Positions 19,542 to 51,975 of a stretch of DNA of 64,000 nucleotides are shown here, piece after piece (position 1 is the stretch's first letter; each line of letters begins with the position of its first letter). A model generated the notes under the pieces. That model was not told where the DNA came from, ran no database searches, and saw only the letters and a program-made list of their open reading frames with translations. Source of the DNA: Chaetoceros tenuissimus. Lineage: Eukaryota > Bacillariophyta > Thalassiosirophyceae > Chaetocerotales > Chaetocerotaceae. A program made the position numbers and the translations under genes. The stretch lies in assembly GCA_021927905.1 (NCBI GenBank), contig BLLK01000057.1, positions 124,001-188,000 on the forward strand, in the 5' to 3' direction.

Positions 19542-19572
19542 TTGGTATCTACCAATACAACAAGGATACCAA
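19542..19572 (+). promoter_or_regulatory. LRR_5-family palindromic promoter element, copy A
   Basis: TTGGTATC and GATACCAA arms are separated by 15 nt (TACCAATACAACAAG), ending 132 bp before ATG 19704. Twelve family promoters in the window share it. Confidence 0.7.
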
Positions 19573-19703
19573 CATTTCAACTGTGAAGGTGACGGGCACT
19601 TCTTTTTATGATATTTCAATTGAATTAGATTAGACTGCTACTGCTGCTAGAAAAGACATGTGTTCTTGAAATGTAATCTAATATCAAACATTCAATATTC
19701 AGT

Positions 19704-20540
19704 ATGAGATTACTCCGAAAACTAACAAAAAGGGAATGGAAGGAAATTAGCGAGAAGTACAAAGACGGAGGAGTTCACATGTACAGAGGAAAGAGAACTC
19801 TATTTTACAAAGGAGAAATACTTTACAAATTTGAGACTGGAGAGTATTTAATCTATGATAAAGATGAAAGAGAGTCTTGGGAAGTCATCATTGTTCTTCC
19901 TGGAGTGGAAGTGATTCATCATGGTACTTTCAACGAATGTAGGAATATCGAGACTGTCATCATGGCTGATACAGTTAAAAGAATTGAAAATGAAGCTTTC
20001 GATAGTTGCTTGAATCTCAAGTTTGTCAAACTATCCAGAAGTTTGGAATTTATTGGAACAAATACATTCTGGTACTGTAAATCTTTGACTTCAATTTTTA
20101 TTCCAGCATCATGTAGAGAGATTGGCGATTGGGCATTTTATAATTGCAAAAGGTTGTTAATCTTGGTATTGCCTCCGTATACTCAACTTGGTGAGGACGT
20201 TTTTGAAAGCACAGCATTGATGAAAAGGTCTCCATTTGAAACTGATGAGAATGGCGATTATGATAGAAATGACGACAATGAGGAGGAAACAGTAGATCAA
20301 TGGATCAAGTCCATCAACAATGAAGAAGCATACGTTCTTCATCGCGCTTGTTCCTCTTTTAATCCATCGTCCGAAACTATCCATGTACTCGTAAAGCGAC
20401 AAGGTATTGAATCAATGAGAATGAAAAATTCAATCGGAATCACTCCTTCCCAATATTTAGAAGCGAATATATTTGCTGGGATCTCAGAAAAAGAAATTGT
20501 GAATAGATATATTTTAGATATGATGGGAGAAGTATTTTAA
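19704..20540 (+). CDS. LRR_5 protein, array copy A (278 aa)
   Basis: ATG 19704 opens MRLLRKLTKREWKEISEKY, the family start. Residues ~20-55 form the conserved GGVHMYRGKRTLFYKGE entry. Residues ~60-170 are LRR_5 (BspA-like) repeats with the recurring pattern IP..TF..C.N...V.M...V+.IE..AF..C. The last ~100 residues are a family-specific helical tail (HRACSSFNP...IGITPSQYLEAN...RYILDMMGEVF). There is no signal peptide, membrane segment or catalytic motif, so it is probably a cytosolic recognition or scaffold protein. It nearly equals copy D over the first ~220 residues but differs in the last ~50. Confidence 0.85.
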   Translation: MRLLRKLTKREWKEISEKYKDGGVHMYRGKRTLFYKGEILYKFETGEYLIYDKDERESWEVIIVLPGVEVIHHGTFNECRNIETVIMADTVKRIENEAFDSCLNLKFVKLSRSLEFIGTNTFWYCKSLTSIFIPASCREIGDWAFYNCKRLLILVLPPYTQLGEDVFESTALMKRSPFETDENGDYDRNDDNEEETVDQWIKSINNEEAYVLHRACSSFNPSSETIHVLVKRQGIESMRMKNSIGITPSQYLEANIFAGISEKEIVNRYILDMMGEVF

Positions 20541-20921
20541 GCAATACGGCAAGATAGGTCTTCCATTCATATTTTAATATGTATCGTTTCTATAAAATAA
20601 ACAGAAATAAAGTTATTTCAAGTATTTATTTTCTAATCATTGCATGAAAACATTCTCGCCAATCATTCTAGAATAAATCTCTTGATATGACCATTCTGGG
20701 TTCATAACCACAAAGGAAAAATGAAGATCATATAGACCAACTGCATTGAAACTAGTAAAACTTCAATTTTTATTGAATAATTTTTTATTTCTATAAGTTG
20801 ACTTCCTTCTCAGTTTCTCATGTTATCTCAATCGATCCTTTTGGTCAAACCGATATTTCTGTTTTCTGTGCCCTTTTGTTTTCTCTCCTTATTCTTCGTC
20901 CATCTGTCCAGCTTCCGATGT
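20541..20921. other. Array spacer with conserved 3' module
   Basis: About 50-70 bp after the stop is TTTCTATAAA.TAAACAGAA followed by TATTT..AGTATTTA. The same 3' module follows most array copies. The rest is AT-rich spacer; no gene. Confidence 0.5.
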
Positions 20922-20952
20922 TTGGTATCTACCAATACGACAGTGATACAAA
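20922..20952 (+). promoter_or_regulatory. LRR_5-family palindromic promoter element, copy B
   Basis: TTGGTATC with a slightly degraded right arm GATACAAA, ending 111 bp before ATG 21063. Confidence 0.65.
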
Positions 20953-21062
20953 TGATACGAGAGAAGAGAGAAGTGAAAGTGGATTACAATTGAATTAGAC
21001 TACTGCTAGGCTAGACTAGAGACATGACCACTTGAAATTGAATCACCTCTCAAATCTATAAA

Positions 21063-21887
21063 ATGAGACTACAGAGAGACTTCACAAATAAGGAATGGAA
21101 GGAGATTGGAGAGAAGTACAAAGATGGAGGTGTTCACATGTACAAAGGCAAGAGAACCTTTTTCTACAACGGAGAGAAACTTTTGAAAGAAAATGAAGGG
21201 CCTCTTATCTATAATTATAAAGAGAGAGATTCTTGGGAAGTCATGATTGTTCTTCCCGGAGTGGAAGTGATTCATTATCATACTTTCGATGCTTGTGAGA
21301 ATATTAAGACAGTCATCATGGCCGATACAGTCAAGAGAATTGAAGAAGGTGCTTTTGAGGGTTGCTATAGTCTTGAGTTTGTCAAACTATCGAGAAACTT
21401 GGAATACATTGGAGATATGGCATTCCATTGGTGTAAATCATTGACTTCAATCTTCATTCCTCCATCCTGTAGAGAGATTGGTAGTGGTGCATTTTGTGGA
21501 TGCCACCAATTGTTAATCATTGGAATGTCTCTGCATACTGAACTTGGTGAGTTTGTTTTTCAAAACACAGCTGTGCTAAAGAATTCTTCAATTTCCATCG
21601 ATAAAGATGGTTTCTATGAAGGGAATGACGATGAAAGGGTAATTCGTTGGGTCAAATCTATAAATGATGAAGATGTATATGCTCTTCACCACGCATGTTC
21701 CTCCATCAATCCGTTAGGTGATATAATTCATGATTTAGTGAAGCAACAAGGCATCAAAGCTATGAGAATACCAAATGCAATCGGCGTCACGCCATCCCAA
21801 TATTTAGAAGCAAATACGTTTGCTGATATCTCAGAGAAAGATATTATTAATAGATATATTTTGGACTCAATGGGAGAAGTTATCTAA
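21063..21887 (+). CDS. LRR_5 protein, array copy B (274 aa)
   Basis: MRLQRDFTNKEWKEIGEKY opens the frame at ATG 21063. The architecture is that of copy A: GGVHMYKGKRTFFYNGEKL entry, LRR_5 repeats, and the helical tail ending YILDSMGEVI. Its 3' flank (after the stop at 21887) is nearly the same as that of copy I at 32403, which suggests exchange or shared descent of gene ends. A mini-ORF ATG-ACC-ACT-TGA lies at 21024-21035. Confidence 0.85.
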   Translation: MRLQRDFTNKEWKEIGEKYKDGGVHMYKGKRTFFYNGEKLLKENEGPLIYNYKERDSWEVMIVLPGVEVIHYHTFDACENIKTVIMADTVKRIEEGAFEGCYSLEFVKLSRNLEYIGDMAFHWCKSLTSIFIPPSCREIGSGAFCGCHQLLIIGMSLHTELGEFVFQNTAVLKNSSISIDKDGFYEGNDDERVIRWVKSINDEDVYALHHACSSINPLGDIIHDLVKQQGIKAMRIPNAIGVTPSQYLEANTFADISEKDIINRYILDSMGEVI

Positions 21888-22034
21888 AGCAACGAAACAA
21901 GATAGATATTCAATTCATATTTCAATACATAATGTTTCTATAAAGTAAACAGAAACATATCTATTTGAAGTATTTACCTTATAATTATTGCTCGCCTATC
22001 ATTTCCTAAATAAATATCTTCTTCGCAATAGTGG

Positions 22035-22065
22035 TTGATATCTACCAATACAACAGTGATACCAA
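22035..22065 (+). promoter_or_regulatory. LRR_5-family palindromic promoter element, copy C
   Basis: TTGATATC and GATACCAA arms, 15-nt spacer, ending 95 bp before ATG 22160. Confidence 0.65.
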
Positions 22066-22159
22066 AATCAACTGCTGCACTTCTTCGTAAACAGAACAGC
22101 AATTTCAATTCATTAGAACGGAGTAGAGATGTCGAATCTTCATCTATACACTCTATTCA

Positions 22160-23005
22160 ATGTATAAAATGAGATTACAAAGAGGCTTCACGAATAAAGA
22201 ATGGAAGGAGATCAGTGAGAAGTACGGAGATGGAGGAGTACATGATTATAGAGGAAAGAAGACTCTCTTTTACAAAGGAGAGAAACTTTGGGAAGGACGT
22301 GGCAAGAATGGTCATCCTATTGTCTATGATTTGGAAGAAAGAAACACTTGGCAAGTAGTAGCAGTTCTTTCCGGAGTTGAGGAGATTCCTACAAGTACTT
22401 TCTATGAATGCAGGAATGTCAAGACTGTCATTATGAGTGATACAGTCAAGAGAGTCGAAGAGTGTACTTTCCATAGTTGCATTAGTCTCGAGTTTGTCAA
22501 GCTATCAAGAAATTTGGAATACATCGGATGGGCTGCATTCAGTCACTGTACTTCTATCTATTCAATCTTCATTCCGCCATCCTGTAGAGAAATTGTCCAT
22601 CTAGCATTTTCTTTCTGCGAGAAGTTGACTATCTTGAGTGTTCCTCAAACAATTGAACTTGGCGAAGGTTTGATTTTTGGTACCAAATTGATACAAGCAT
22701 CTCATTTCGACGCAAACGGACGCGGTGGCTATAGCAACAATGCCGAAGTCAACGAGTGGATTACACATTTAAATCAAGAGCAAGAATTTGCTCTTCATCA
22801 CGAATGCGCATCCTATGAACCTTCCAAAGATAACATTTATGAAATGATAAAGGAGCAAGGACTTTCATCTCTCAATACAGAAAACAAAATTGGAATCACA
22901 GCATCGAAATATTTACAAGAGAATCCTTTCTTTGAAAATGAAGTTGAAGAAAAGAAATTGATCAATAGTTATGTTCTTGATCTAATGGGTGAATTCATTG
23001 CTTAA
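22160..23005 (+). CDS. LRR_5 protein, array copy C (281 aa)
   Basis: The start is ATG 22160 (MYKMRLQRGF); ATG 22169 is the position other members use. It belongs to a sub-branch with GGVHDYRGKKTLFYKGEKLWEGRGKNGHP, LRR_5 repeats (TFYECRNVKTVIMSDTVKRVEECTF) and a tail ending YVLDLMGEFIA. It pairs with copy J (32684-33538), which it matches almost throughout. No catalytic motif. Confidence 0.85.
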   Translation: MYKMRLQRGFTNKEWKEISEKYGDGGVHDYRGKKTLFYKGEKLWEGRGKNGHPIVYDLEERNTWQVVAVLSGVEEIPTSTFYECRNVKTVIMSDTVKRVEECTFHSCISLEFVKLSRNLEYIGWAAFSHCTSIYSIFIPPSCREIVHLAFSFCEKLTILSVPQTIELGEGLIFGTKLIQASHFDANGRGGYSNNAEVNEWITHLNQEQEFALHHECASYEPSKDNIYEMIKEQGLSSLNTENKIGITASKYLQENPFFENEVEEKKLINSYVLDLMGEFIA

Positions 23006-23173
23006 AATTTACAAGAAGCAAACTATATCATTATAAATAAATCTTTTTTATTTTTTTTTTTTTCTATTTCTGCATCTAGTGCTTTGAATAAGAGATAGGA
23101 GAAGCAATCTTTCTGCGTGGATGCGTTTTCCATTTTGTTTTCTTTCTTCTGCGTCTCTGTTGTCTATCCATGT

Positions 23174-23204
23174 TTCGTATCTACCAATACGACGGTGATA
23201 CCAA
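23174..23204 (+). promoter_or_regulatory. LRR_5-family palindromic promoter element, copy D
   Basis: TTCGTATC and GATACCAA arms, ending 140 bp before ATG 23344. Confidence 0.65.
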
Positions 23205-23343
23205 CATTCCAACTGCGACAGGCGACAGGTGAAGGGTGTGATGGGCTAGATACTTCTTGTTTTCCATTTCAATTGAATTAGACTGCTAAGCTAGAAAAGA
23301 GATGTGTACTCAATATTGAATCTCCTTTCAAACATTCAATAAA

Positions 23344-24180
23344 ATGAGATTACTCCGAAAACTAACAAAAAGGGAATGGAAGGAAATTAGCGAGAAGTAC
23401 AAAGACGGAGGAGTTCACATGTACAGAGGAAAGAGAACTCTATTTTACAAAGGAGAAATACTTTACAAATTTGAGACTGGAGAGTATTTAATCTATGATA
23501 AAGATGAAAGAGAGTCTTGGGAAGTCATCATTGTTCTTCCTGGAGTGGAAGTGATTCATCATGGTACTTTCAACGAATGTAGGAATATCGAGACTGTCAT
23601 CATGGCTGATACAGTTAAAAGAATTGAAAATGAAGCTTTCGATAGTTGCTTGAATCTCAAGTTTGTCAAACTATCCAGAAATTTGGAATTTATTGGAACA
23701 AATACATTCTGGTACTGTAAATCTTTGACTTCAGTTTTTATTCCAGCATCATGTAGAGAGATTGGCGATTGGGCATTTTATAATTGCAAAAGGTTGTTAA
23801 TCTTGGTATTGCCTCCGTATACTCAACTTGGTGAGGACGTTTTTGAAAGCACAGCATTGATGAAAAGGTCTCCATTTGAGACTGATGAGAATGGCGATTA
23901 TGATAGAAATGACGACAATGAGGAGGAAACAGTAGATCAATGGATCAAGTCCATCAACAATGAAGAAGCATACGTTCTTCATCGCGCTTGTTCCTCGTTT
24001 AATCCATCGTCCGAAAATATCCATGCACTAGTTAAGCGACAAGGTATTGAATTAATGCGAATGAAAAATACAATCGGTGTCACTCCTTCTCAATATTTAG
24101 AAGCAAATAAGTTTGCTGAAATTTCGGAGAAAGATATTATCAACAGATACATTTCAGAAATGATGGGCGAAGTATTCTAA
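23344..24180 (+). CDS. LRR_5 protein, array copy D (278 aa)
   Basis: MRLLRKLTKREWKEISEKY at ATG 23344. It matches copy A over the first ~220 residues with only a couple of changes. Its last ~50 residues (ENIHALVKRQGIELMRMKNTIGVTPSQ...YISEMMGEVF) match copy G instead. Its second two-thirds lie inside the 3.1-kb near-identical duplication. Mini-ORF ATG-TGT-ACT-CAA-TAT-TGA at 23302-23319. The family domain description is under copy A. Confidence 0.85.
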   Translation: MRLLRKLTKREWKEISEKYKDGGVHMYRGKRTLFYKGEILYKFETGEYLIYDKDERESWEVIIVLPGVEVIHHGTFNECRNIETVIMADTVKRIENEAFDSCLNLKFVKLSRNLEFIGTNTFWYCKSLTSVFIPASCREIGDWAFYNCKRLLILVLPPYTQLGEDVFESTALMKRSPFETDENGDYDRNDDNEEETVDQWIKSINNEEAYVLHRACSSFNPSSENIHALVKRQGIELMRMKNTIGVTPSQYLEANKFAEISEKDIINRYISEMMGEVF

Positions 24181-24325
24181 GCAATGAATCACAGCATGTA
24201 ACTTTTCTATAAAGTAAACAGAAGTAAGCCTATTTGAAGTAATTACTGTAAATTATTCCTCTTCAAAAACCAGTTTCGCCATCATTTATGCCTCTCGTAT
24301 CTTTTCACAAAAATTTTCCGCCGTG

Positions 24326-24356
24326 TTGGAATCTACCAATACGACAGTGATACCAA
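24326..24356 (+). promoter_or_regulatory. LRR_5-family palindromic promoter element, copy E
   Basis: TTGGAATC and GATACCAA arms. It is 1157 bp from ATG 25513, but removing the inserted transposon and one target-site copy leaves 126 bp, the usual spacing. Confidence 0.65.
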
Positions 24357-24381
24357 GGGTGATACTAAAATCTAGTAGAAG

Positions 24382-25404
24382 CAGGTGGTCTGGCGTGAGG
24401 GGGTCCGATGTGAGAGGGTTCGTGAGAGGGTGACTTGGACGCATAACCTGAGCATTCTAACAACAAGTTGGATGAGTTATTCCCGTCTTTTTGAATTTGG
24501 CCGTTGGTGTGCGTTGCTGCTCTTCTTCTCGTTTGTTGAACAGCATCCACCTCTCTCACATAAAACCTTCTCGTCATCTTATGCCATGGTAAGTTTGTCT
24601 ATTTGTTTTCACTACAATGTACTCAACTCATTTCTAAAATAATTTCTGCAGGTTGATTTTCGCATCAGAATGAAGTGAGATGTACTGGTAGGGTTGGCTT
24701 AGTTTATTTGATGCTAAGATCTTGTTCATCTACACAACTACCGTTCATTTGGGTGATCGATCGCACAGTTATTCTATTGCATGGAGGTTGCAGGATCTAA
24801 ATACAATTTGGCTTTAGAAAATATGAGATGGTGAAGCAAGCGGTTGAAACATGGTCTGGAAGCCTTTTTCTAAGGATTTTTTGGATGTTTTCAGCCCAAA
24901 CTGACAACTGACATATGTTGTTGTTTCACTTTTCACATTCGGTTTGCTAAATGGTGACTATTAACACTGTAACAGAGCACCTCCAATTCAAATCCTTAAA
25001 TGGGAAGCAAAAGGGACTATTCAGAGTATAATTCAAAATGGAAGCATCCTAATTTAAAAATATAACATCCAATAAGTATGTTTCAAAATTATTTCTAATT
25101 TGATGTACAATAATAATACTCAATTGCCTATCTAAAATCTATGTAATATATATTTTAGACATTAAAAAAAGCATGCAGGAGGCGAAACCCTCGTTACCAA
25201 CATCGACTTTTTCCATACGTTATCATAGAGTCTCCACCACCTTCTGATGTTCTTTTGTTTTTTTTCTTTATCACTGTTTTCTGGGATTGATTCAAATGGA
25301 AGATTTTAATGAGATTTCAACACAGGAAAGAGACTTAGGTTATGCGTCCAAGTCACCCTCTCACGAACCCTCTCCCATCGGACCCCCTCACGCCAGACCA
25401 CCTC
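24382..25404 (+). mobile_element. Non-autonomous DNA transposon, 1023 bp, with 67-bp terminal inverted repeats and an 8-bp target duplication
   Basis: Inverted repeats at 24383-24449 and 25337-25403 (AGGTGGTCTGGCGTGAGGGG... to ...TTGGACGCATAACCT) differ at one base. AGTAGAAG flanks both sides (24374-24381 and 25405-25412). No transposase is encoded. A GTAAGT...TTTCTGCAG pair at about 24592-24652 looks like an intron, so the inside may derive from a spliced gene. An 8-bp duplication fits hAT- or P-like elements; the long inverted repeats leave the family open. It is inserted between the promoter palindrome and the start codon of copy E. Confidence 0.8.
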
Positions 25405-25512
25405 AGTAGAAGACGCTTCGACGCTTCCTTCAAAGCCATTTCAATGGAATTAGACTGTTAAAAGAGATGTCTACTCGAAATTGAATCTCCTTTGAAACAT
25501 TCAATATATAAA

Positions 25513-26346
25513 ATGAGATTACTAAGAGGTTTCACCAATAAAGAGTGGATGGAGATCAGTGAGAAGTACAAAGACGGAGGGGTTCACATGTACAGAGGCA
25601 AGAAAACTCTCTTTTACAACGGAGAGAAATTATGGCAAAAACATGAAGATCCAGAAGAAGAAGGCTGGCCTCGTGTCTATGACTATAAAGAGCGGCGATC
25701 TTGGGAAGTCATCATCATATTACCTGGAGTTGAAACCATTCATTATGGCACTTTCCATGCTTGTAGGAATGTCAAGACTGTCATCATGGCCATTAAAGAT
25801 GTTGCATTTCATTGTTGCTATGGTCTCGAGTTTGTCAGACTATCAAGAAACCTCGAGTACATTGGAAAAAGTGCATACTATTCCTGTCAAGCTTTGACTT
25901 CAGTATTCATTCCGCCATCATGTAGAAAGATTGACAATGAAGCATTCTTTTTGTGCAAACAGTTGGCAATCTTGGGATTGCCTCAACATACTGAACTTGG
26001 TAGAAGTGTTTTCCAGTACACACCAATGATAAAAGCATCTCCTATTGAGACAGATTATGATGGTTGCTATTATAGAACCGACGAAAATGAGGAGGAAGCA
26101 GTCAGATGGGTCAAGTCAATCAACTATGGCGATGCTTGCGCTCTTCACCGTGCTTGCGCTTCTTTCAACCCCTTGTCTGAAATCATTCATGATCTAGTAA
26201 AGCGTCAAAGCATCAACGCTATGAGAATGAAAAACAAAATAGGCATCACTCCTTCCCAATATCTGGCAGCAAACACGTTTGCTGATGTATCAGAGAAAGA
26301 GATTATCAACAGATATATTTCAGACATGATGGGAGAAGTATTCTAA
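25513..26346 (+). CDS. LRR_5 protein, array copy E (277 aa)
   Basis: ATG 25513 (MRLLRGFTNKEWMEISEKY); the open frame upstream has no ATG. The middle reads TVIMAIKDVAFHCC where other members have TVIMADTVKRIE..AF..C, so about six residues of one LRR_5 repeat are missing. The tail ends YISDMMGEVF. A transposon lies in its promoter region. Identical to copy H. Mini-ORF ATG-TCT-ACT-CGA-AAT-TGA at 25467-25484. Confidence 0.85.
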   Translation: MRLLRGFTNKEWMEISEKYKDGGVHMYRGKKTLFYNGEKLWQKHEDPEEEGWPRVYDYKERRSWEVIIILPGVETIHYGTFHACRNVKTVIMAIKDVAFHCCYGLEFVRLSRNLEYIGKSAYYSCQALTSVFIPPSCRKIDNEAFFLCKQLAILGLPQHTELGRSVFQYTPMIKASPIETDYDGCYYRTDENEEEAVRWVKSINYGDACALHRACASFNPLSEIIHDLVKRQSINAMRMKNKIGITPSQYLAANTFADVSEKEIINRYISDMMGEVF

Positions 26347-26653
26347 TCAATGAAGCAAGATTGATCTTGAATGCATATTTCAATAGGTTACTTTTATTTA
26401 AAGTAAATACTAGAAGCAAATGTATTTGAAGTATTTATTATTTATCGCCCATCATTTTCTAGATTAATCTTAACCGCAAATGAAAATGAAGATCAGACAG
26501 ATTAACTGTAAGGAAACTAATAAATCTTCAATCTTTTCTTATTAATTAATTCCATTGTTTCTATAGTTGCTTCCTGCTTTAGTTTCTCTCATTATATCTC
26601 AATTGATTCATTAGCTTTTTCGTTTTTCTCTTTTTCGTAATTGGTCTTCCAAT

Positions 26654-26684
26654 TTGGTATCTACCAATACGACAGTGATACCGA
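26654..26684 (+). promoter_or_regulatory. LRR_5-family palindromic promoter element, copy F
   Basis: TTGGTATC and GATACCGA arms, ending 121 bp before ATG 26805. Confidence 0.65.
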
Positions 26685-26804
26685 AATCAAGGGGAAGTAG
26701 GAAGGAAGTAGGAAGATATTTCGATATTTCAATTGAATTGGACTGCTTGCTGAAGACATGTATGTGCACTTGAAATTCATACTTTGAAACATTCCATATA
26801 TAAA

Positions 26805-27650
26805 ATGAGATTACAGAGAGGCTTCACGAATAAAGAATGGAAGGAGATTGGAGAGAAGTACAAAGATGGAGGAGTACATATGTACAGAGGAAAGAAGACA
26901 TTCTTCTGGAACGGAGAGAAACTATGGGAGGAAGTCGAAGATGAAGATCCAGAAGAAGAAGGCTGGCCTCGTGTCCATGACTATGAAGAGAGAGAATCGT
27001 GGCAAGTATTAGTTGTTCTTCCCGGAGTGACAGTGATTCCTAATCGTACTTTCTATGAATGCAGAAATATAGAGACAGTCATCATGAGCGATACCGTACG
27101 AAGAATCGAATGGAGTGCTTTTCATTGTTGCTTTAGTCTCAAGTTTGTCAGACTATCCAGAAGTCTCGAGTTTATTGGACATTACGCATTCTATGCCTGT
27201 CGATCTTTGGTTTCAATCTTTATTCCGCCATTGTGTAGAGACATTGGCGATTATGCATTGTGTGAATGTGAAAAATTGATTATTTTGGGAATACCTCAGC
27301 ATGTACAACTTGGAGAAAAAGTGATTGCTGCTACATCATTGATAAAGAAATCTCCAATTGAAAATAGACATGGGTACTATGATAGAAACAACGAAAATGA
27401 AGTAGTCCGATGGGTCAAGTCCATCAATAATGAAGAAGTATACGCTCTTCACCGTGCTTGCGCTTCTTTCAACCCCTTGTCTGAAATCATTCATGATCTA
27501 GTAAAGCGACAAGGCATCGAAGCTATGAGAATGAAAAATGCAATGGATGTCACTCCTTCTCAGTATTTAGAAGCCAATACATTCGCTGATATCTCGGAGA
27601 AAGAGATCATCAACAGATATATTTTAGATGTAATGGGAGAAGTTATCTAA
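26805..27650 (+). CDS. LRR_5 protein, array copy F (281 aa)
   Basis: ATG 26805 (MRLQRGFTNKEWKEIGEKY). It has a charged insertion EEVEDEDPEEEGWPRVHDYEERESWQVL after the entry motif, then LRR_5 repeats with TFYECRNIETVIMSDTVRRIEWSAF, and a tail ending YILDVMGEVI. From about residue 63 to 230 it is almost identical to copy I. The 3' flank carries the TTTCTATAAAGTAAAC module. Confidence 0.85.
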   Translation: MRLQRGFTNKEWKEIGEKYKDGGVHMYRGKKTFFWNGEKLWEEVEDEDPEEEGWPRVHDYEERESWQVLVVLPGVTVIPNRTFYECRNIETVIMSDTVRRIEWSAFHCCFSLKFVRLSRSLEFIGHYAFYACRSLVSIFIPPLCRDIGDYALCECEKLIILGIPQHVQLGEKVIAATSLIKKSPIENRHGYYDRNNENEVVRWVKSINNEEVYALHRACASFNPLSEIIHDLVKRQGIEAMRMKNAMDVTPSQYLEANTFADISEKEIINRYILDVMGEVI

Positions 27651-27967
27651 AGCAATGGAGCAAGATTGATCTTGCATTAATTTTTCTTTATGTAACATTT
27701 CTATAAAGTAAACGGGAAGTAATAAAGCTATTTGAGTATTTCACAATTATTGATTGAAACATTCTCGGCTATCATTTCTAGAATATTCTTAACTGCAAAG
27801 GAAAATGAGGATCGGACAGATTGACTGTAAGGAAGTTAGTAAGTCTTCAATCTTTTATTATTTTAAATATTTCTATAGTTTTTATAGTTGCTTCCTGCTT
27901 CAGTTTTTCTCATTATTTACTTGATGCTTGCCTTTTTCTTTCTTTCTTTCGCTGTCGGTTCCTGCGA

Positions 27968-27984
27968 CGTTTACCAATACGACA
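27968..27984 (+). promoter_or_regulatory. LRR_5-family promoter element, copy G (left arm degraded)
   Basis: The right half ACCAATACGACAGTGATACCAA is intact; the left arm is replaced by GCGACGTT. It ends 114 bp before ATG 28098. Confidence 0.55.
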
Positions 27985-28097
27985 GTGATACCAACATTCC
28001 AACTGGCAGCTCTTTTTCTATGCCATTTCAATTGAATTACACTACTAGAGAAGATATGTGTACACGAAATTAAATCACCTTTCAAACATTCAATAAA

Positions 28098-28934
28098 ATG
28101 AGATTACAAAGAAAACTGACGAATAAAGAATGGGAGGAAATTAGCGAAAAGTACAAAGATGGAGGAGTACATGATTATAAAGGCAAGAAGACTCTATTTT
28201 ACAAAGGAGAAATACTTTACAAATTTGAGACTGGAGAGTGTTTAATCTATGATAAAGATGAGAGAGAGTTTTGGGAAGTCATCATTGTTCTTCCTGGAGT
28301 GAAAGTGATTCATTATGGTACTTTCAACGAATGTATCAATGTCAAGACTGTCATAATGGCCGATACAGTCAAGAGAATTGAAAATGAAGCTTTCGATAGT
28401 TGCTTGAATCTCAAGTTTGTCAAACTATCCAGAAATTTGGAATTTATTGGAACAAATACATTCTGGTACTGTAAATCTTTGACTTCAGTTTTTATTCCAG
28501 CATCATGTAGAGAGATTGGCGATTGGGCATTTTATAATTGCAAAAGGTTGTTAATCTTGGTATTGCCTCCGTATACTCAACTTGGTGAGGACGTTTTTGA
28601 AAGCACAGCAATGATGAAAAGGTCTCCATTTGAGACTGATGAGAATGGCGATTATGATAGAAATGACGACAATGAGGAGGAAACAGTAGATCAATGGATC
28701 AAGTCCATCAACAATGAAGAAGCATACGTTCTTCATCGCGCTTGTTCCTCTTTTAATCCATCGTCCGAAAATATCCATGCACTAGTTAAGCGACAAGGTA
28801 TTGAATCAATGAGAATGAAAAATACAATCGGTGTTACTCCTTCTCAATATTTAGAAGCGAATAAGTTTGCTGAAATTTCGGAGAAAGATATTATCAACAG
28901 ATACATTTCAGAAATGATGGGCGAAGTATTCTAA
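28098..28934 (+). CDS. LRR_5 protein, array copy G (278 aa)
   Basis: ATG 28098 (MRLQRKLTNKEWEEISEKY). The first ~90 residues differ from copy D at many sites (GGVHDYKGKKTLFYKGE). From about residue 93 it is nearly identical to D and lies inside the 4754-bp-period duplication. The breakpoint thus falls within the coding region and makes a mosaic gene. Mini-ORF ATG-TGT-ACA-CGA-AAT-TAA at 28056-28073. Confidence 0.85.
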   Translation: MRLQRKLTNKEWEEISEKYKDGGVHDYKGKKTLFYKGEILYKFETGECLIYDKDEREFWEVIIVLPGVKVIHYGTFNECINVKTVIMADTVKRIENEAFDSCLNLKFVKLSRNLEFIGTNTFWYCKSLTSVFIPASCREIGDWAFYNCKRLLILVLPPYTQLGEDVFESTAMMKRSPFETDENGDYDRNDDNEEETVDQWIKSINNEEAYVLHRACSSFNPSSENIHALVKRQGIESMRMKNTIGVTPSQYLEANKFAEISEKDIINRYISEMMGEVF

Positions 28935-29079
28935 GCAATGAATCACAGCATGTAACTTTTCTATAAAGTAAACAGAAGTAAGCCTATTTGAAGTAATTAC
29001 TGTAAATTATTCCTCTTCAAAAACCAGTTTCGCCATCATTTATGCCTCTCGTATCTTTTCACAAAAATTTTCCGCCGTG

Positions 29080-29110
29080 TTGGAATCTACCAATACGACA
29101 GTGATACCAA
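29080..29110 (+). promoter_or_regulatory. LRR_5-family palindromic promoter element, copy H
   Basis: Identical to copy E and likewise parted from its gene by the transposon. Confidence 0.65.
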
Positions 29111-29135
29111 GGGTGATACTAAAATCTAGTAGAAG

Positions 29136-30158
29136 CAGGTGGTCTGGCGTGAGGGGGTCCGATGTGAGAGGGTTCGTGAGAGGGTGACTTGGACGCATAA
29201 CCTGAGCATTCTAACAACAAGTTGGATGAGTTATTCCCGTCTTTTTGAATTTGGCCGTTGGTGTGCGTTGCTGCTCTTCTTCTCGTTTGTTGAACAGCAT
29301 CCACCTCTCTCACATAAAACCTTCTCGTCATCTTATGCCATGGTAAGTTTGTCTATTTGTTTTCACTACAATGTACTCAACTCATTTCTAAAATAATTTC
29401 TGCAGGTTGATTTTCGCATCAGAATGAAGTGAGATGTACTGGTAGGGTTGGCTTAGTTTATTTGATGCTAAGATCTTGTTCATCTACACAACTACCGTTC
29501 ATTTGGGTGATCGATCGCACAGTTATTCTATTGCATGGAGGTTGCAGGATCTAAATACAATTTGGCTTTAGAAAATATGAGATGGTGAAGCAAGCGGTTG
29601 AAACATGGTCTGGAAGCCTTTTTCTAAGGATTTTTTGGATGTTTTCAGCCCAAACTGACAACTGACATATGTTGTTGTTTCACTTTTCACATTCGGTTTG
29701 CTAAATGGTGACTATTAACACTGTAACAGAGCACCTCCAATTCAAATCCTTAAATGGGAAGCAAAAGGGACTATTCAGAGTATAATTCAAAATGGAAGCA
29801 TCCTAATTTAAAAATATAACATCCAATAAGTATGTTTCAAAATTATTTCTAATTTGATGTACAATAATAATACTCAATTGCCTATCTAAAATCTATGTAA
29901 TATATATTTTAGACATTAAAAAAAGCATGCAGGAGGCGAAACCCTCGTTACCAACATCGACTTTTTCCATACGTTATCATAGAGTCTCCACCACCTTCTG
30001 ATGTTCTTTTGTTTTTTTTCTTTATCACTGTTTTCTGGGATTGATTCAAATGGAAGATTTTAATGAGATTTCAACACAGGAAAGAGACTTAGGTTATGCG
30101 TCCAAGTCACCCTCTCACGAACCCTCTCCCATCGGACCCCCTCACGCCAGACCACCTC
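29136..30158 (+). mobile_element. Non-autonomous DNA transposon, second identical copy
   Basis: Same element and same AGTAGAAG flanks (29128-29135 and 30159-30166) as 24382-25404. It was copied by the segmental duplication rather than by a second insertion, because flanks and position match exactly. Confidence 0.8.
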
Positions 30159-30266
30159 AGTAGAAGACGCTTCGACGCTTCCTTCAAAGCCATTTCAATG
30201 GAATTAGACTGTTAAAAGAGATGTCTACTCGAAATTGAATCTCCTTTGAAACATTCAATATATAAA

Positions 30267-31100
30267 ATGAGATTACTAAGAGGTTTCACCAATAAAGAGT
30301 GGATGGAGATCAGTGAGAAGTACAAAGACGGAGGGGTTCACATGTACAGAGGCAAGAAAACTCTCTTTTACAACGGAGAGAAATTATGGCAAAAACATGA
30401 AGATCCAGAAGAAGAAGGCTGGCCTCGTGTCTATGACTATAAAGAGCGGCGATCTTGGGAAGTCATCATCATATTACCTGGAGTTGAAACCATTCATTAT
30501 GGCACTTTCCATGCTTGTAGGAATGTCAAGACTGTCATCATGGCCATTAAAGATGTTGCATTTCATTGTTGCTATGGTCTCGAGTTTGTCAGACTATCAA
30601 GAAACCTCGAGTACATTGGAAAAAGTGCATACTATTCCTGTCAAGCTTTGACTTCAGTATTCATTCCGCCATCATGTAGAAAGATTGACAATGAAGCATT
30701 CTTTTTGTGCAAACAGTTGGCAATCTTGGGATTGCCTCAACATACTGAACTTGGTAGAAGTGTTTTCCAGTACACACCAATGATAAAAGCATCTCCTATT
30801 GAGACAGATTATGATGGTTGCTATTATAGAACCGACGAAAATGAGGAGGAAGCAGTCAGATGGGTCAAGTCAATCAACTATGGCGATGCTTGCGCTCTTC
30901 ACCGTGCTTGCGCTTCTTTCAACCCCTTGTCTGAAATCATTCATGATCTAGTAAAGCGTCAAAGCATCAACGCTATGAGAATGAAAAACAAAATAGGCAT
31001 CACTCCTTCCCAATATCTGGCAGCAAACACGTTTGCTGATGTATCAGAGAAAGAGATTATCAACAGATATATTTCAGACATGATGGGAGAAGTATTCTAA
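30267..31100 (+). CDS. LRR_5 protein, array copy H (277 aa)
   Basis: ATG 30267. The protein is identical to copy E, including the short LRR_5 repeat, so it arose by the recent duplication. The dosage effect is unknown. Confidence 0.85.
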   Translation: MRLLRGFTNKEWMEISEKYKDGGVHMYRGKKTLFYNGEKLWQKHEDPEEEGWPRVYDYKERRSWEVIIILPGVETIHYGTFHACRNVKTVIMAIKDVAFHCCYGLEFVRLSRNLEYIGKSAYYSCQALTSVFIPPSCRKIDNEAFFLCKQLAILGLPQHTELGRSVFQYTPMIKASPIETDYDGCYYRTDENEEEAVRWVKSINYGDACALHRACASFNPLSEIIHDLVKRQSINAMRMKNKIGITPSQYLAANTFADVSEKEIINRYISDMMGEVF

Positions 31101-31407
31101 TCAATGAAGCAAGATTGATCTTGAATGCATATTTCAATAGGTTACTTTTATTTAAAGTAAATACTAGAAGCAAATGTATTTGAAGTATTTATTATTTATC
31201 GCCCATCATTTTCTAGATTAATCTTAACCGCAAATGAAAATGAAGATCAGACAGATTAACTGTAAGGAAACTAATAAATCTTCAATCTTTTCTTATTAAT
31301 TAATTCCATTGTTTCTATAGTTGCTTCCTGCTTTAGTTTCTCTCATTATATCTCAATTGATTCATTAGCTTTTTCGTTTTTCTCTTTTTCGTAATTGGTC
31401 TTCCAAT

Positions 31408-31438
31408 TTGGTATCTACCAATACGACAGTGATACCGA
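31408..31438 (+). promoter_or_regulatory. LRR_5-family palindromic promoter element, copy I
   Basis: TTGGTATC and GATACCGA arms, identical to copy F, ending 120 bp before the lost start codon at 31558. Confidence 0.65.
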
Positions 31439-31557
31439 AATCAAGGGGAAGTAGGAAGGAAGTAGGAAGATATTTCGATATTTCAATTGAATTGGACTGC
31501 TTGCTGAAGACATGTACACTTGAAATTGAATCTCCTTTGAAACATTCAATATTCAAA

Positions 31558-32403
31558 ATAAGATTACAGAGAGGATTCACAAATAAGGAATGGAAGGAGA
31601 TTGGAGAGAAGTACAAAGATGGAGGAGTTCACATGTTTCGAGGAAAGAAGACTTTCTTTTATAACGGAGAGAAACTTTGGGATCAAGGTGAAGATGAAGA
31701 TCCAGAAGTAGAAGGTTGGCCACGTGTCCATGACTACGAAGAGAGAGAATCGTGGCAAGTATTAGTTGTTCTTCCCGGAGTGACAGTGATTCCTAATCGT
31801 ACTTTCTATGAATGCAGAAATATAGAGACAGTCATCATGAGCGATACCGTACGAAGAATCGAATGGAGTGCTTTTCATTGTTGCTTTAGTCTCAAGTTTG
31901 TCAGACTATCCAGAAGTCTCGAGTTTATTGGACATTACGCATTCTATGCCTGTCGATCTTTGGTTTCAATCTTTATTCCGCCATTGTGTAGAGACATTGG
32001 CGATTATGCATTGTGTGAATGTGAAAAATTGATTATTTTGGGAATACCTCAGAATGTACAACTTGGAGAAAAAGTGATTGCTGCTACGTCATTGATAAAG
32101 AAATCTCCAATTGAAAATAGACATGGGTACTATGATAGAAACAACGAAAATGAAGTAGTCCGATGGGTCAAGTCCATCAATAATGAAGAAGTATACGCTC
32201 TTCACCGTGCTTGCGCTTCTTTCAACCCCTTGTCTGAAATCATTCATGAACTAGTAAAGCGACAAGGCATCAAAGCTATGAAAATTACAAATTCAATCGG
32301 TGTCACGCCTTCCCAATATTTAGAAGCGAATACATTTGCTGACATCTCAGAAAAAGAGATTATCAACAGATATATTTCAGATATGATGGGAGAAGTTATC
32401 TAA
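31558..32403 (+). pseudogene. LRR_5 gene, array copy I, with start codon changed to ATA
   Basis: The family start reads ATA-AGA-TTA-CAG (31558-31569) where the others have ATG-AGA-TTA-CAG; the frame beyond it is intact to 32403. No in-frame ATG lies upstream. The next in-frame ATG is 25 codons downstream, inside GGVHMFRGKK, and would remove the N-terminal segment. The rest is normal: LRR_5 repeats almost identical to F, and a tail (KAMKITNSIGVTPSQ...YISDMMGEVI) closer to B and A. A shortened protein from the internal ATG is possible. Confidence 0.65.
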
Positions 32404-32556
32404 AGCAACGAAACAAGATAGATATTCAATTCATATTTCAATGATTCTATAAAGTAAACAGAAATATATCTATTTGAGTATTTACCTTATAATTATTGCG
32501 TTTAAGAACATTCTCGCCTATCATTTCTTAAACAAATATCTTCTTCGTAATGGTGT

Positions 32557-32588
32557 TTGGTATCTACCAATACAACAGGTGATACCAA
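32557..32588 (+). promoter_or_regulatory. LRR_5-family palindromic promoter element, copy J
   Basis: TTGGTATC and GATACCAA arms with a 16-nt spacer, ending 96 bp before ATG 32684. Confidence 0.65.
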
Positions 32589-32683
32589 AATCAACTTGCA
32601 GCATTTCCGAGCAATTTCAATTCACTTTAGAACGAGAAGAGATGTACATTTGAAATTGAATCTTCATCTATACACTCTATTCG

Positions 32684-33538
32684 ATGTATAAAATGAGATT
32701 ACAGAGAGGTTTCACCAATAAAGAGTGGAAACGCATCAGTGAGAAGTACGGAGATGGAGGAGTACATGATTATAGAGGAAAGAAGACTCTCTTTTACAAA
32801 GGAGAGAAACTTTGGGAAGGACGTGGCAAGAATGGTCATCCTATTGTCTATGATTTGGAAGAAAGAAACACTTGGGAAGTATTGATAGTTCTTCCCGGAG
32901 TTGAGGAGATTCCTACAAGTACTTTCTATGAATGCAGGAATTTCAAGACTGTCATTATGAGTGATAAAGTCAAGAGAATTGAAGAGTGTACTTTCCATAG
33001 TTGCATTAGTCTCGAGTTTGTCAAGCTATCGAGGAATCTTGAATACATCGGATGGGCTGCATTCAGTCACTGTACTTCTATCTATTCAATCTTCATTCCT
33101 CCATCGTGTAGAGAAATTGTCCATCTAGCATTTTCTTTTTGCGAGAAGTTGACTATCTTGAGTGTTCCTCAAACAATTGAACTTGGCGAAGGTTTGATTT
33201 TTGGTACCAAATTGATACAAGCATCTCAGTTCGACGTAAACGGACGCGGTGGCTATAGCAACAATGTCGAAGTCAACGAGTGGATTAAACATTTAAATCA
33301 AGAGCAAGAATTTGCTCTTCATCGTAAATGTGCATCCTATGAACCTTCCAAAGATGACATATATGAAATGATAAAGCTTTGTGGTCTTTCATCTCTCCAT
33401 ACAGAAAACAAAATTGGAATCACAGCATCGAAATATATGCAAGAGAATCCCTTCTTTGAAAATCAAATTGACGAAAAGAAATTGATGAATAGATATGTTC
33501 TTGATCATATGGGTGAATTCATTACATTTGATAATTGA
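32684..33538 (+). CDS. LRR_5 protein, array copy J (284 aa)
   Basis: ATG 32684 (MYKMRLQRGF). It is a near copy of C in promoter, entry motif (GGVHDYRGKKTLFYKGEKLWEGRGK) and LRR_5 repeats. It differs in the tail (MIKLCGLSSLHTENK; YVLDHMGEFITFDN). It is the last gene of the plus-strand array, 57 bp from the end of the convergent bestrophin-like gene. Mini-ORF ATG-TAC-ATT-TGA at 32642-32653. Confidence 0.85.
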   Translation: MYKMRLQRGFTNKEWKRISEKYGDGGVHDYRGKKTLFYKGEKLWEGRGKNGHPIVYDLEERNTWEVLIVLPGVEEIPTSTFYECRNFKTVIMSDKVKRIEECTFHSCISLEFVKLSRNLEYIGWAAFSHCTSIYSIFIPPSCREIVHLAFSFCEKLTILSVPQTIELGEGLIFGTKLIQASQFDVNGRGGYSNNVEVNEWIKHLNQEQEFALHRKCASYEPSKDDIYEMIKLCGLSSLHTENKIGITASKYMQENPFFENQIDEKKLMNRYVLDHMGEFITFDN

Positions 33539-34828: not shown

Positions 34829-35214
34829 TTTAGAAATTTATGAGATGCTGGAACAGTTTGTAGAGTAGTCAATGAAATATAATTAGAGGACTGCAATGAA
34901 TAAAGTTTAGTAAATTCATGGATTCATTTCTCATTCCTCTCTCTTTGGAACTGCATCGAGAAACGCAAGATATGTTGTACCAGAACATTCCAATGTCTTC
35001 ATTCTTTTGACGTCATCATAGTGACGTCACTATATTGGATAGCCAATAGAAGAGATGTACCAGATAGCCATTTTAGGAGTCCCATTCTTCGCAGCCACAG
35101 AAAAAACGCACGAAGTTGAAGTGCAAAACATAACAACAGTAACAGATCTTCTAATTCAATTGAAATAAACTACAATTTGAAACTGTACTGAAAGTCTAAA
35201 CAAATATTACAGTC
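34829..35214. promoter_or_regulatory. Bidirectional promoter with two TGACGTCA bZIP sites
   Basis: Perfect CRE-type palindromes lie at 35008-35015 and 35022-35029, 14 bp apart and roughly midway between the two start codons (180 bp from 34828, 186 bp from 35215). CCAAT-like motifs flank them (about 34990 and 35041). In Phaeodactylum, TGACGT CO2/cAMP-responsive elements control carbonic anhydrase genes through bZIP factors. Application here is inference. Confidence 0.6.
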
Positions 35215-43774: not shown

Positions 43775-43826
43775 TCGTGCTAAGATAAACTTAATGAGTA
43801 AGAATTCCGAAAAGATTGTAACTTAG

Positions 43827-48280: not shown

Positions 48281-48543
48281 TGCAAGTGTTCAAATTGAAT
48301 GGATAGAGATGCAAATAATGAAGATAACAAGAGCTTGTCAATGGACTTTTGCTTTGTTGTGTCCATTAGCGTCTGGCCTCAGTACGAGCAAGGATAAACC
48401 GGTTGACGTATGGACGGAATACTGGTTGCATAACCGTCCATCATGTGACGAGAGCGCTGGTGTTTATTATTTGTTTATTTCGTCAATTGCACTAGCTATC
48501 TTTATTGCTCCATGTGCAACTTCTCAGCAAAATTCAAATCCAA

Positions 48544-49365
48544 ATGAAGATAAAAGGGAAATGGACGAAAAAGAAATGGGCAATGATTGCAGCATTGGGT
48601 CCGGGAGTACGAAATTATAGAGGAAAGAAAACTCTGTTTTACAAAGGAGAGAAACTATGGGAAGGAGATTATGTGTTTGGTGGACCTCTAGTCTATGGTC
48701 AAAGAAAGAGAAACACTTGGCAAGTCATTATTATTCTTCCCGGAGTTGAAATCATTCCTGCGTGGACTTTCTATGATTGTAAGAATGTCAAGACTGTCAT
48801 TATGAGTGATACAGTCAAGAGAATTGAAGATAATGCTTTCTGGTGTTGCGATAGACTCGTGGTCGTCAGACTCTCAAAAAATTTGGAATACATTGGAGAT
48901 ATGGCATTCTCTTCCTGCAAACGTCTCCGTTCAATTTTTATTCCTCCGTCTTGTAGAGAGATTGAATATAGAGCATTTGATGAGTGTCATCAGTTGATCA
49001 TTTTGAATGTTCCTCAACAAACTCAACTTGGTCAAGATGTGATTGCTAATACCAAATTGATTGAAGCATCTCATTTCGAAGCAGATGAAGATGGTGAATA
49101 TGAGAATCAAGAGGAAATCAAAACATGGATCAAAAATATAAATCAAGGTGAAGAACACGCTCTGCATAGAGCATGCTCATCGTTCAATCCTCGAGGTGAC
49201 AGGATTTATGCAATTGTGAAAAGGGTAGGTATTCAAGCCTTTCGGGAACCAAATTCGATCGGCATTGCTCCTGCGCAGTATCTTGAGGCAAATTACTTTG
49301 GTCGAGTTGATCAGACAAAGATAATCAATAGGTACATTCTAAACTTGATGGGCGAGATTGTATAA
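48544..49365 (+). CDS. LRR_5 protein (273 aa)
   Basis: ATG 48544 gives MKIKGKWTKKKWAMIAALGPG, matching the start region of the frameshifted member at 3651; the open frame upstream has no ATG. Entry motif GVRNYRGKKTLFYKGEKLWEG, LRR_5 repeats (TFYDCKNVKTVIMSDTVKRIEDNAF), and a tail ending YILNLMGEIV. It is divergent from the helicase gene and lacks the family promoter palindrome. An upstream ATG (48510) opens a short ORF that ends before 48550. Confidence 0.85.
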   Translation: MKIKGKWTKKKWAMIAALGPGVRNYRGKKTLFYKGEKLWEGDYVFGGPLVYGQRKRNTWQVIIILPGVEIIPAWTFYDCKNVKTVIMSDTVKRIEDNAFWCCDRLVVVRLSKNLEYIGDMAFSSCKRLRSIFIPPSCREIEYRAFDECHQLIILNVPQQTQLGQDVIANTKLIEASHFEADEDGEYENQEEIKTWIKNINQGEEHALHRACSSFNPRGDRIYAIVKRVGIQAFREPNSIGIAPAQYLEANYFGRVDQTKIINRYILNLMGEIV

Positions 49366-49737: not shown

Positions 49738-50223
49738 TCAGAATACATCGCCCATCATTTCTGAAATGTATCTGTTGATAATCTCTTGCCCCGAAATATC
49801 AGCAAATGTATTCGCTGCCAGATATTGAGAAGGAGTAATACCAATAGCATTTTTCATTCTCATGGCTTCAATGCCTTGTCGCTTTACTAGATCATGAATG
49901 GTTTCAGCTATTGGATTGGAAGAGGAACAAGCGCGGTGAAGAGCGTATGCTTCTTCATTATTGATGGACTTGGCCCATCGAATTGCTCTTTCATCATCAT
50001 TGTCGTCATAGTAACTATAGTAAAACTCCATCGAAGAAAACAGTTTAAAGAATTGCTCTCGAAGTTCTTCTCTTTCAAGTAGAACTCTGAAATTCAAAAA
50101 GTGGTTCTTTTCAAAGATTTCTAATAAATGTTCATTTCTTGCATTTTCATAATTTTCAGTGTTTCGCAGTAGAATTTCGAGGCAATCCTCTGGAATGCCA
50201 ACGGAAGGCCAATAGTCAGTCAT
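49738..50223 (-). CDS. Chimeric family member: unrelated N-terminus joined to the LRR_5-family tail (161 aa)
   Basis: ATG 50223 (MTDYWPSVGIPEDCLEILLRN). The first ~75 residues are helical and unlike the LRR_5 domain; no family is recognised. From ERAIRWAKSINNEEAYALHRACSS onward the protein is the family tail, ending YISEMMGDVF and close to copies E and F. Upstream it has the family palindrome (50354-50384) at the normal distance, and downstream the family 3' module. Thus promoter, tail and terminator are kept while the LRR core is replaced. Confidence 0.65.
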   Translation of the reverse strand: MTDYWPSVGIPEDCLEILLRNTENYENARNEHLLEIFEKNHFLNFRVLLEREELREQFFKLFSSMEFYYSYYDDNDDERAIRWAKSINNEEAYALHRACSSSNPIAETIHDLVKRQGIEAMRMKNAIGITPSQYLAANTFADISGQEIINRYISEMMGDVF

Positions 50224-50353
50224 GTAGTTGGTGGATAGGTAGACGAAAGCTCTGTGTTGGGATGATAGTTGGTATACTTTAGAGGAGCACAAAGATATCT
50301 AAATGAAAATCTATCTATCAATCTGTCTCTCTCTTCTCTGTTCTGCTGTGGTG

Positions 50354-50384
50354 TTGGTATCATTGTTGTATTGGTAGATACGAC
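50354..50384 (-). promoter_or_regulatory. LRR_5-family palindromic promoter element of the chimeric gene
   Basis: Read on the minus strand: arms GTCGTATC and GATACCAA, 15-nt spacer, 131 bp before ATG 50223. Confidence 0.6.
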
Positions 50385-50710
50385 ACGTCAGACGGACGGA
50401 CAAAGAAGGAAGAAAACAAAAAAAGTACAGTATTTACTGCTCGTATGACGAGCCCACCAACCACTAGAACATAAGGATCACCTTGTAGTCTCATGCTTAG
50501 TCATAGTATCTATACAATAGTATGTTCCATTGTCCATGAATTCATTATTAAATAGAAGAGCTATTCAATTCCATTGTACTAGCTTTGCTATGTGCACTGT
50601 CTTAGCAAAATTCATACGTATTTATATGTTAGCCTACTAGTCCGGCCACATTTCAAAAAGGAATAGGCGGCGTTCTGTTCTGGTCGTATTTAGATTATCT
50701 AGTTTACATT

Positions 50711-51823
50711 TCATACACTGTTGCCAAGTCTTCTTCTTTTCATATCTGCATATATAACATCTTTCTGCTCTCGAAACATTAAAGAGAGCTTGCACAACAC
50801 CTGAATTCTATCTTGCAAACTTCTTTTGCATGACTTTTCTACCTTTTCTTCGTTCGTAGTCTCTTTCTCTTTTGAATCTTGGTAATTTGATTCGATTGCA
50901 ATTTGCTCATTATTCTGTTTGATTTCACTTTCTTCTTGTTCAGTATCAATGCCATTTCTGACAGCGTGTTCAAGTTCTACTCTCTGTTCACCTATTTCTT
51001 GGAATTCACCCATGAGACCAAGAACATATCTATTGATCAATTTCTTTTCTTCAATTTGATTTTCAAAGAAGGGATTCACTTGCAAATATTTCAACGCTGT
51101 GATTCCAATTTGGTTTGCTGTGTGTAGAGATGAAAGACCTTGCTCCTTGATTATTTCATATAACCTTTCTTCTGATGGAGGACTGTATGCGGAGCATTCA
51201 CGATGAATAGCAAATTCTTCCTCTTGATTTAGAAGTTTAATCCACTCATTGACTTCGTCATTGTTGTCATATTCACCATCTTTATCTACTTTGAAATAAG
51301 ATGCTTCAATCAATGCGGTATGAGCAATCACATTTTCACCAAGGTCAGTGTGCGAAGGAACACTCATAATGATCAACTGTTTACAATACATAAATGCTTT
51401 CTCGCCAATCATTGTACACGATGGAGGAAAAAAGATCGAAGTCAGCCATACACAGATGTAGAATGCATACTTTCCAATAAACTCGAGATTTCTGGACAGT
51501 TTGACAAACTTGAGATTGAAGCATTGAAAGAAAGCTGCTTCTTCAATTCTTCGTACACTATCGGCCATGATTACTTTCTTGACATTGATACACTGAAAGA
51601 AAGTACCTTCAGGAATGATCTCTACTCCTGGAAGAACTATAATTACTCGCCAAGTATTTCTTTCTTCAAAATCATAGACAAGAAACTCACGCGGATTTTC
51701 GCAAAGCTTCTCTCCTTTGTAAAATAGAGTCTTCTTTCCTCTGTACATGTGAACTCCTCCATCTTTGTACTTCTCGCTAATTTCCTTCCACTCTTTATTC
51801 GTGAAGCCTCTCTGTAGTCTCAT
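50711..51823 (-). CDS. LRR_5 protein with charged C-terminal extension (370 aa)
   Basis: ATG 51823 (MRLQRGFTNKEWKEISEKY). Normal entry motif and LRR_5 repeats (TFFQCINVKKVIMADSVRRIEEAAF), and a C/J-type tail (QIGITALKYLQVNPFFENQIEEKKLINRYVLGLMGEF). About 95 extra residues then follow that no other member has. They are Glu/Lys/Gln-rich with a basic end (DMKRRRLGNSV) that could be a nuclear signal. Confidence 0.85.
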   Translation of the reverse strand: MRLQRGFTNKEWKEISEKYKDGGVHMYRGKKTLFYKGEKLCENPREFLVYDFEERNTWRVIIVLPGVEIIPEGTFFQCINVKKVIMADSVRRIEEAAFFQCFNLKFVKLSRNLEFIGKYAFYICVWLTSIFFPPSCTMIGEKAFMYCKQLIIMSVPSHTDLGENVIAHTALIEASYFKVDKDGEYDNNDEVNEWIKLLNQEEEFAIHRECSAYSPPSEERLYEIIKEQGLSSLHTANQIGITALKYLQVNPFFENQIEEKKLINRYVLGLMGEFQEIGEQRVELEHAVRNGIDTEQEESEIKQNNEQIAIESNYQDSKEKETTNEEKVEKSCKRSLQDRIQVLCKLSLMFREQKDVIYADMKRRRLGNSV

Positions 51824-51944
51824 TTTATATATTGAATGTTTCAAAGGGATTCAATTTCAAGTGCATATGTCTTCTCTAGCTTAGCAGTCTAATTCAATTG
51901 AAATAGTGAAATAGTTCGTTTCCTTGTTGCCCCTTCTGTTCATG

Positions 51945-51975
51945 TTGGTATCACTGTTGTATTGGTAGATACCAA
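51945..51975. promoter_or_regulatory. Perfect palindromic promoter element shared by divergent family members
   Basis: TTGGTATC, 15 nt, GATACCAA with both 8-nt arms intact. It lies 122 bp before ATG 51823 (minus strand) and 127 bp before the pseudogene start at 52102 (plus strand). Confidence 0.7.

Follow-up and report, generated by a model that had tools for sequence, protein, structure and literature searches.

What could switch on a family of LRR_5 genes together in a diatom? The question is raised by 64,000 nucleotides (nt) of Chaetoceros tenuissimus DNA (assembly GCA_021927905.1, contig BLLK01000057.1, positions 124,001 to 188,000 of the forward strand), hereafter the window, in which a 31-nt interrupted palindrome, the motif, recurs upstream of a tandem array of LRR_5-family genes. 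A specific element upstream of these genes would offer a way to find out what activates the family. We consider it probable, judging from the sequence, that the motif is a proximal-promoter binding site for a sequence-specific protein, inherited in common by this LRR_5 family and maintained by selection. A DNA-binding complex would read the invariant core TACCAATAC plus the flanking half-sites TTGGTATC and GATACCAA. The site is about 95-140 bp upstream of the start codon, and a second shared block, ATTTCAATTGAATTAGAC, follows 28-64 nt downstream of it; from this place in the proximal promoter, the complex would control the genes of the family together.

Shared promoter elements of gene families are of a known kind, and shared promoter motifs of multigene families in protists form a general class. 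The likeness to these lies in one upstream element common to the paralogues of a tandem family; the differences are that the family here is LRR_5 (BspA-type) and that the element is an interrupted dyad. No description of the motif itself was recognised among the literature matches listed.

Position and specificity of the motif

Sixteen copies of the LRR_5 family were found in the window by tblastn, using the window's own family proteins as queries. They comprise the ten genes of a plus-strand array (within 19704-33538), the plus-strand gene 48544-49365, a broken plus-strand copy, and four minus-strand copies, namely an LRR-KAP gene and the genes starting at 3651, 50223, and 51823. The first five array genes start at 19704, 21063, 22160, 23344, and 25513, and the last five at 26805, 28098, 30267, 31558/31633, and 32684. 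The earlier note had placed the motif before a start codon in all ten, which does not hold for the ninth, where ATA stands at 31558 in place of the ATG of its relatives and the next ATG is at 31633. All seven full-length or near full-length members scanned against Pfam matched LRR_5 (PF13306) at 59.8-81.8 bits (cut-off 27.7); the scan covered three of the ten array genes, and the other seven were assigned by homology.

Twelve copies of the motif were found, each on the strand of its gene, before all ten array genes (a1 to a10) and before the minus-strand genes 50223 (m1) and 51823 (m2), exactly as the earlier note had claimed. In a matrix scan of both strands, these copies scored 22-51 bits, against 9.2 bits for the best other place in the window; the lowest score, 22 bits, belongs to the copy with a 16-nt spacer because the matrix allows no gap. 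With leave-one-out matrices, every copy fell within the top 11 positions of the window. Furthermore, all 15 exact occurrences of the arm 8-mer TTGGTATC on the two strands of the window lie inside the 12 copies, and the exact arm-spacer-arm pattern matched three times, versus none in 100 shuffles.

The copies with a perfect dyad are a1 (19542-19572, plus strand, 131 nt before ATG 19704), a10 (32557-32588, plus strand, 16-nt spacer, 95 nt before ATG 32684), and m2 (51945-51975, minus strand, 121 nt before ATG 51823). The other array copies, likewise on the plus strand, include a2 (20922-20952, 110 nt before ATG 21063) and a6 (26654-26684, 120 nt before ATG 26805), with one mismatch in the right arm, and a3 (22035-22065, 94 nt before ATG 22160), a4 (23174-23204, 139 nt before ATG 23344), and a5 (24326-24356, 125 nt before ATG 25513 once an insertion is removed), with one in the left arm. 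Copies a8 (29080-29110) and a9 (31408-31438, with the ATA at 31558 as start codon) lie in duplicates of a5 and a6, respectively. In a7 (27964-27994, 103 nt before ATG 28098), the left arm is lost, with six of its eight positions changed, and the core and right arm are intact. The minus-strand copy m1 (50354-50384, 130 nt before ATG 50223) has two mismatches in the left arm and TGACGT directly upstream. With the insertion removed and a9 measured to its ATA, the distance from motif to start codon is 94-139 nt in the 12 copies, in agreement with the 95-140 bp given earlier with the transposon discounted.

All twelve copies lie upstream of family members, and the description of them as LRR_5-family promoters is accurate apart from 50223, a truncated gene that has no Pfam match and aligns with the C-terminal part of the family only. 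At 49738-50223, a motif-bearing promoter is followed by the C-terminal domain alone, that is, by a family member without the LRR part. Scans of viral and prokaryotic contigs gave no relatives of the locus; this is expected because the host is a eukaryote, and it says little about diatoms.

Downstream of the motif comes the second shared block, ATTTCAATTGAATTAGAC. In 11 of the 12 copies, it contains a TCAHW word (TACAAT instead in a2), which is 28-64 nt from the motif and 50-88 nt from the start codon. According to an excerpt of PMC4686930, TCAHW has been proposed as the initiator-like consensus of Phaeodactylum, where it lies 26-61 nt upstream of the start codon. By this likeness, the block may be an initiator, and if it is the start region, the motif would be untranscribed promoter DNA. 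The oomycete INR+FPR element is, in an excerpt of PMC3599244, reported as apparently lacking in a diatom. Most array leaders (for example at 19657-19668) also hold, as judged by eye, a recurring short reading frame from the ATG of ACATGTG...CTTGA, which may be an upstream open reading frame (ORF) or part of a DNA element.

Constraint, symmetry, and competing explanations

Fitch changes were counted on a tree of the coding sequences with 11 copies, 50223 being left out. The whole motif changed 0.52 times per site, compared with 1.68 in the leader (101 columns) and 3.03 in the 45 nt upstream (39 columns), the last rate being inflated by uncertain alignment. Codon positions 1, 2, and 3 gave 1.00, 0.73, and 1.64, respectively. 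Within the motif, the core had no change (0.00 over nine sites), the right arm 0.25, the spacer 0.83, and the left arm 1.12, much of which is due to a7. Pairwise identity among nine non-redundant copies was 87% in the motif, 43% in the 45 nt upstream, and 57% in the leader, and copies with a synonymous divergence (dS) near 1 differ at 2-4 of the 31 motif positions, a7 excluded. The motif has not diverged like its flanking spacer, the outcome that had been named as fatal to the idea of a shared cis-regulatory site; with its identity above that of both flanks and its rate below that of third codon positions, this idea is well supported.

Besides the inflated upstream rate, several points weigh against selection on a protein-binding site. 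The close pair a3/a10 differs by one base and one indel in the motif, versus 5 of 39 upstream positions, and the motifs of a1 and a4 differ at 5 of 31 positions despite a dS of 0.11. Copy a7 does without a left arm. The copies share ancestry and the leader is partly conserved too, so that the motif stands out as the most conserved part of a conserved promoter rather than as an isolated island. TCAHW is common, with about one per leader estimated by chance; consequently, the conservation of the ATTTCAATTGAATTAGAC block weighs more than the TCAHW word.

The consensus arms of the motif are perfectly complementary over 8 bp. Among the individual copies, the dyad (8 + 8) is perfect in three of the twelve, and the arms have one or two mismatches in eight. 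The spacer, claimed to be fixed at 15 nt and once 16, is so in 11 copies; it cannot be stated for a7, whose left arm is lost. The claimed conservation of the inner block proved to be complete: the core TACCAATAC (motif positions 9-17), which contains the pentamer CCAAT, is invariant in 12 of 12 copies, as are positions 7, 19-20 (AC), 24-28 (GATAC), and 31. Mirrored arm changes were found in none of the 12 copies, and no copy is altered in both arms. The symmetry has been overstated; the strictest constraint is on the asymmetric inner core, not on the mirror-image ends. In BLAST, a7 is similar to a1 and a4 from exactly the T of TACCAATAC onward, and a7 accordingly looks, at the level of sequence, as if a rearrangement had joined it at the border of left arm and core.

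The strongest competitor to the core-centred site is an operator for a homodimer that reads both arms as a dyad, with the symmetry itself functional. It is a serious possibility, although the odds are against it. The perfect consensus dyad on which the earlier note had based a dimeric protein stands, and the arms keep a fixed spacing of 15 nt (16 once) with half-site centres 23 bp apart, about two helical turns. Moreover, the left and right arms are about equally conserved if a7 is set aside, and two sister promoters have other perfect dyads. However, the invariant part is the asymmetric core (0 changes at nine sites), perfect dyads are confined to three copies with no mirrored changes, and a7 retains an open coding frame although one of its arms is lost. 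Dyad operators of dimeric DNA-binding proteins are a general class; the motif resembles them as an 8-bp inverted repeat of fixed spacing, and departs from them in that its core is more conserved than its arms and one arm is dispensable in a7.

The CCAAT in the core suggests another reader, an NF-Y-type complex recognising a CCAAT box, to which the arms would be incidental. CCAAT is present in 12 of 12 copies in one orientation, and in Phytophthora infestans, according to an excerpt of PMC3599244, CCAAT boxes are mostly 150 nt or less from the start codon and upstream of the initiator. The motif matches this picture of stramenopile promoters (same excerpt) in having CCAAT in every copy, some tens of nt upstream of a likely initiator and within about 150 nt of the start codon. 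Unlike a plain CCAAT box, it has a much longer conserved block, extending well beyond the pentamer to the equally invariant GATAC and AC (19-20), its occurrence in the window is restricted to one family, and its arms form a consensus dyad that NF-Y would leave unexplained. The sister palindromes at 3764 and 48410 are without CCAAT, and the pentamer alone is uninformative because it occurs 209 times on the two strands of the window. Given the CCAAT in the core, an NF-Y-like partner is plausible, while the conserved GATAC is not explained by CCAAT; that the CCAAT box is the whole of the matter we regard as doubtful.

If the motif were transcribed, it could act as an RNA stem-loop in the 5' leader (8-bp stem, 15-nt loop) controlling translation or stability. 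The perfect copies a1, a10, and m2 fold at -8 to -12 kcal/mol, pairing is preserved in two sister genes whose arms are quite different, and spacers of 15, 16, and 20 nt are easier to reconcile with a loop than with a rigid protein dimer. On the other hand, folding is weak in five copies, a2, a3, a5, a7, and m1, at -1.2 to -3.6 kcal/mol, the changes are one-sided, the loop is better kept than the stem, Rfam gave no match in the window at the gathering score, and the motif is probably upstream of the transcription start. Since five copies fold weakly and no arm change is mirrored, an RNA hairpin is improbable.

Mere inheritance, with tandem copying and gene conversion keeping the promoters alike without any function, would fit the recent duplication of two gene blocks and the converted coding tracts shared by a1 and a4. 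It is nevertheless a very unlikely account, as the motif persists in non-redundant copies whose flanks are saturated and whose dS is near 1, and gene conversion would be expected to include the flanks too. That the conservation reflects a hidden coding exon or a splice site is scarcely credible. In a1, a2, and a4, a short frame does open from an ATG that abuts the motif, but no frame would survive the 1-nt insertion in a10, the nine core sites are unchanged where third codon positions changed 1.64 times per site, and copies a3, a5, and a8 lack the left-arm GT.

Promoters without the motif

As had been claimed, the motif is missing at the LRR-KAP gene and at 3651 and 48544; the last two bear other interrupted palindromes. 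Upstream of the gene 48544-49365, ATGGACGG-n16-CCGTCCAT (48410-48441, plus strand) begins one base after TTGACG, and upstream of 3651, GTAAAAGG-n20-CCTTTTAC (3764-3799, minus strand) likewise begins one base after TTGACG. Both palindromes are perfect and comparable in place to the motif. The layout recalls that of the m2 promoter, TTGACG-T-TTGGTATC-n15-GATACCAA. In the LRR-KAP promoter (ATG 2472, minus strand), TTGACGG is followed by the core-like TATCAATAC (2654-2682), and no inverted repeat was found there, the best candidate being mismatched at four of eight positions. A MAFFT alignment of all promoters, the three without the motif included, was not trustworthy and left the TTGACG words in different columns. 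The conclusion that there are at least two regulatory classes is sound as far as the sequence goes, but because two of the three exceptions have an interrupted palindrome of their own, the classes may be variants of one architecture.

Three of the 31 TTGACG words in the window are followed one base on by a perfect 8-bp repeat (spacer 10-25), where 0.021 would be expected. With m2 set aside as the seed, the probability of at least 2 of 30 words is 2e-4 in what is a post hoc test. TTGACG is also the 6-mer that most often precedes such a repeat, three times versus at most two for any other. Moreover, the three palindromes lie between divergent starts: that of m2 between 51823 (121 nt) and the broken copy at 52102 (126 nt), with TTGACG one base upstream of the motif; that at 48410 between 48280 (129 nt) and 48544 (102 nt); and that at 3764 between 3651 (112 nt) and 3964 (164 nt).

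These features would fit a scheme in which the family promoters share TTGACG-N-arm-spacer(15-20)-arm, the letters of the arms turn over (TTGGTATC, ATGGACGG, GTAAAAGG) with their complementarity kept, the palindrome, placed about midway in divergent promoters, serves both directions, and the array inherited one side of such a divergent unit. Such turnover on a kept architecture is possible but unproven, and we give the scheme as a whole rather little credence. If true, it would mean co-evolving variants of operator and regulator, each for one sub-family, and a rare chance to see an operator system diversify inside a single gene family.

Several results count against turnover. The looser anchor TGACG gives a post hoc P of 0.002 instead of 0.0002, and the window holds 32 perfect 8-bp inverted repeats (spacer 12-20), versus 16.3 +/- 4.6 in 30 first-order Markov sequences. 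A perfect repeat is present in 5 of 22 non-family upstream regions, two of these being the palindromes of the 3651 and 48544 genes. The array copies are without TTGACG, and LRR-KAP has TTGACGG without the repeat. Homology of the 48544 site to that of m2 is doubtful: for the closest relative of the 48544 gene, the remnant at 52102, TTGACG flanks the palindrome at the opposite end.

TGACGT boxes associated with bZIP proteins, aureochromes, and CO2 response occur in diatoms. An excerpt of the aureochrome paper PMC10967249 does not give the box motif. The present promoters resemble these in that TGACGT immediately precedes the palindrome at m1, at m2, and at the 48544 gene, and differ in that it is absent before the array copies and that the 3651 and LRR-KAP promoters have TGACGG.

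The gene family and its surroundings

The window has a GC content of about 38%. Its Pfam matches include two HSF-type DNA-binding proteins, a DHX29-like protein, a bestrophin, a Na/H exchanger, a PPR protein with a methyltransferase domain, a MYND-Sel1 protein, and the LRR_5 proteins, one of which is fused to a KAP NTPase. BspA-type LRR_5 genes have expanded in several protists, and the KAP NTPase domain on one member would recall receptor-type proteins.

Within the array, the a5-a6 block is duplicated as a8-a9 at an offset of 4754, and since the two are 100% identical over about 2.5 kb, the duplication is recent. An insertion of about 1 kb, non-coding-looking, separates motif and leader in a5 (24382-25404, without assigned strand). 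It has 70-nt terminal inverted repeats (97%) and is flanked by the 8-nt direct target repeat AGTAGAAG (24374-24381 and 25405-25412). By the duplication, it is also present in a8 (29136-30158, offset 4754). The coding starts of a1 and a4 (19704-20003 and 23344-23643) are 100% identical over 300 nt, yet their motifs are unlike at 5 of the 31 positions, a pattern suggesting that gene conversion acted on the coding part alone.

The broken plus-strand copy (52099-52894 by tblastn, with its start at 52102) is divergent from the 51823 gene and has stops in all three frames. Its intact stretches resemble the 48544 gene, and GPGVRNYRGKKTLF and CAATTGCACTAGCT are common to that gene and this divergent remnant. 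Finally, two full palindromic TGACGTCA boxes stand 6 nt apart at 35008-35029, between the bestrophin gene (33596-34828, minus strand) and the ORF 35215-35952 (plus strand); such boxes recall the CO2-responsive bZIP elements of diatoms.

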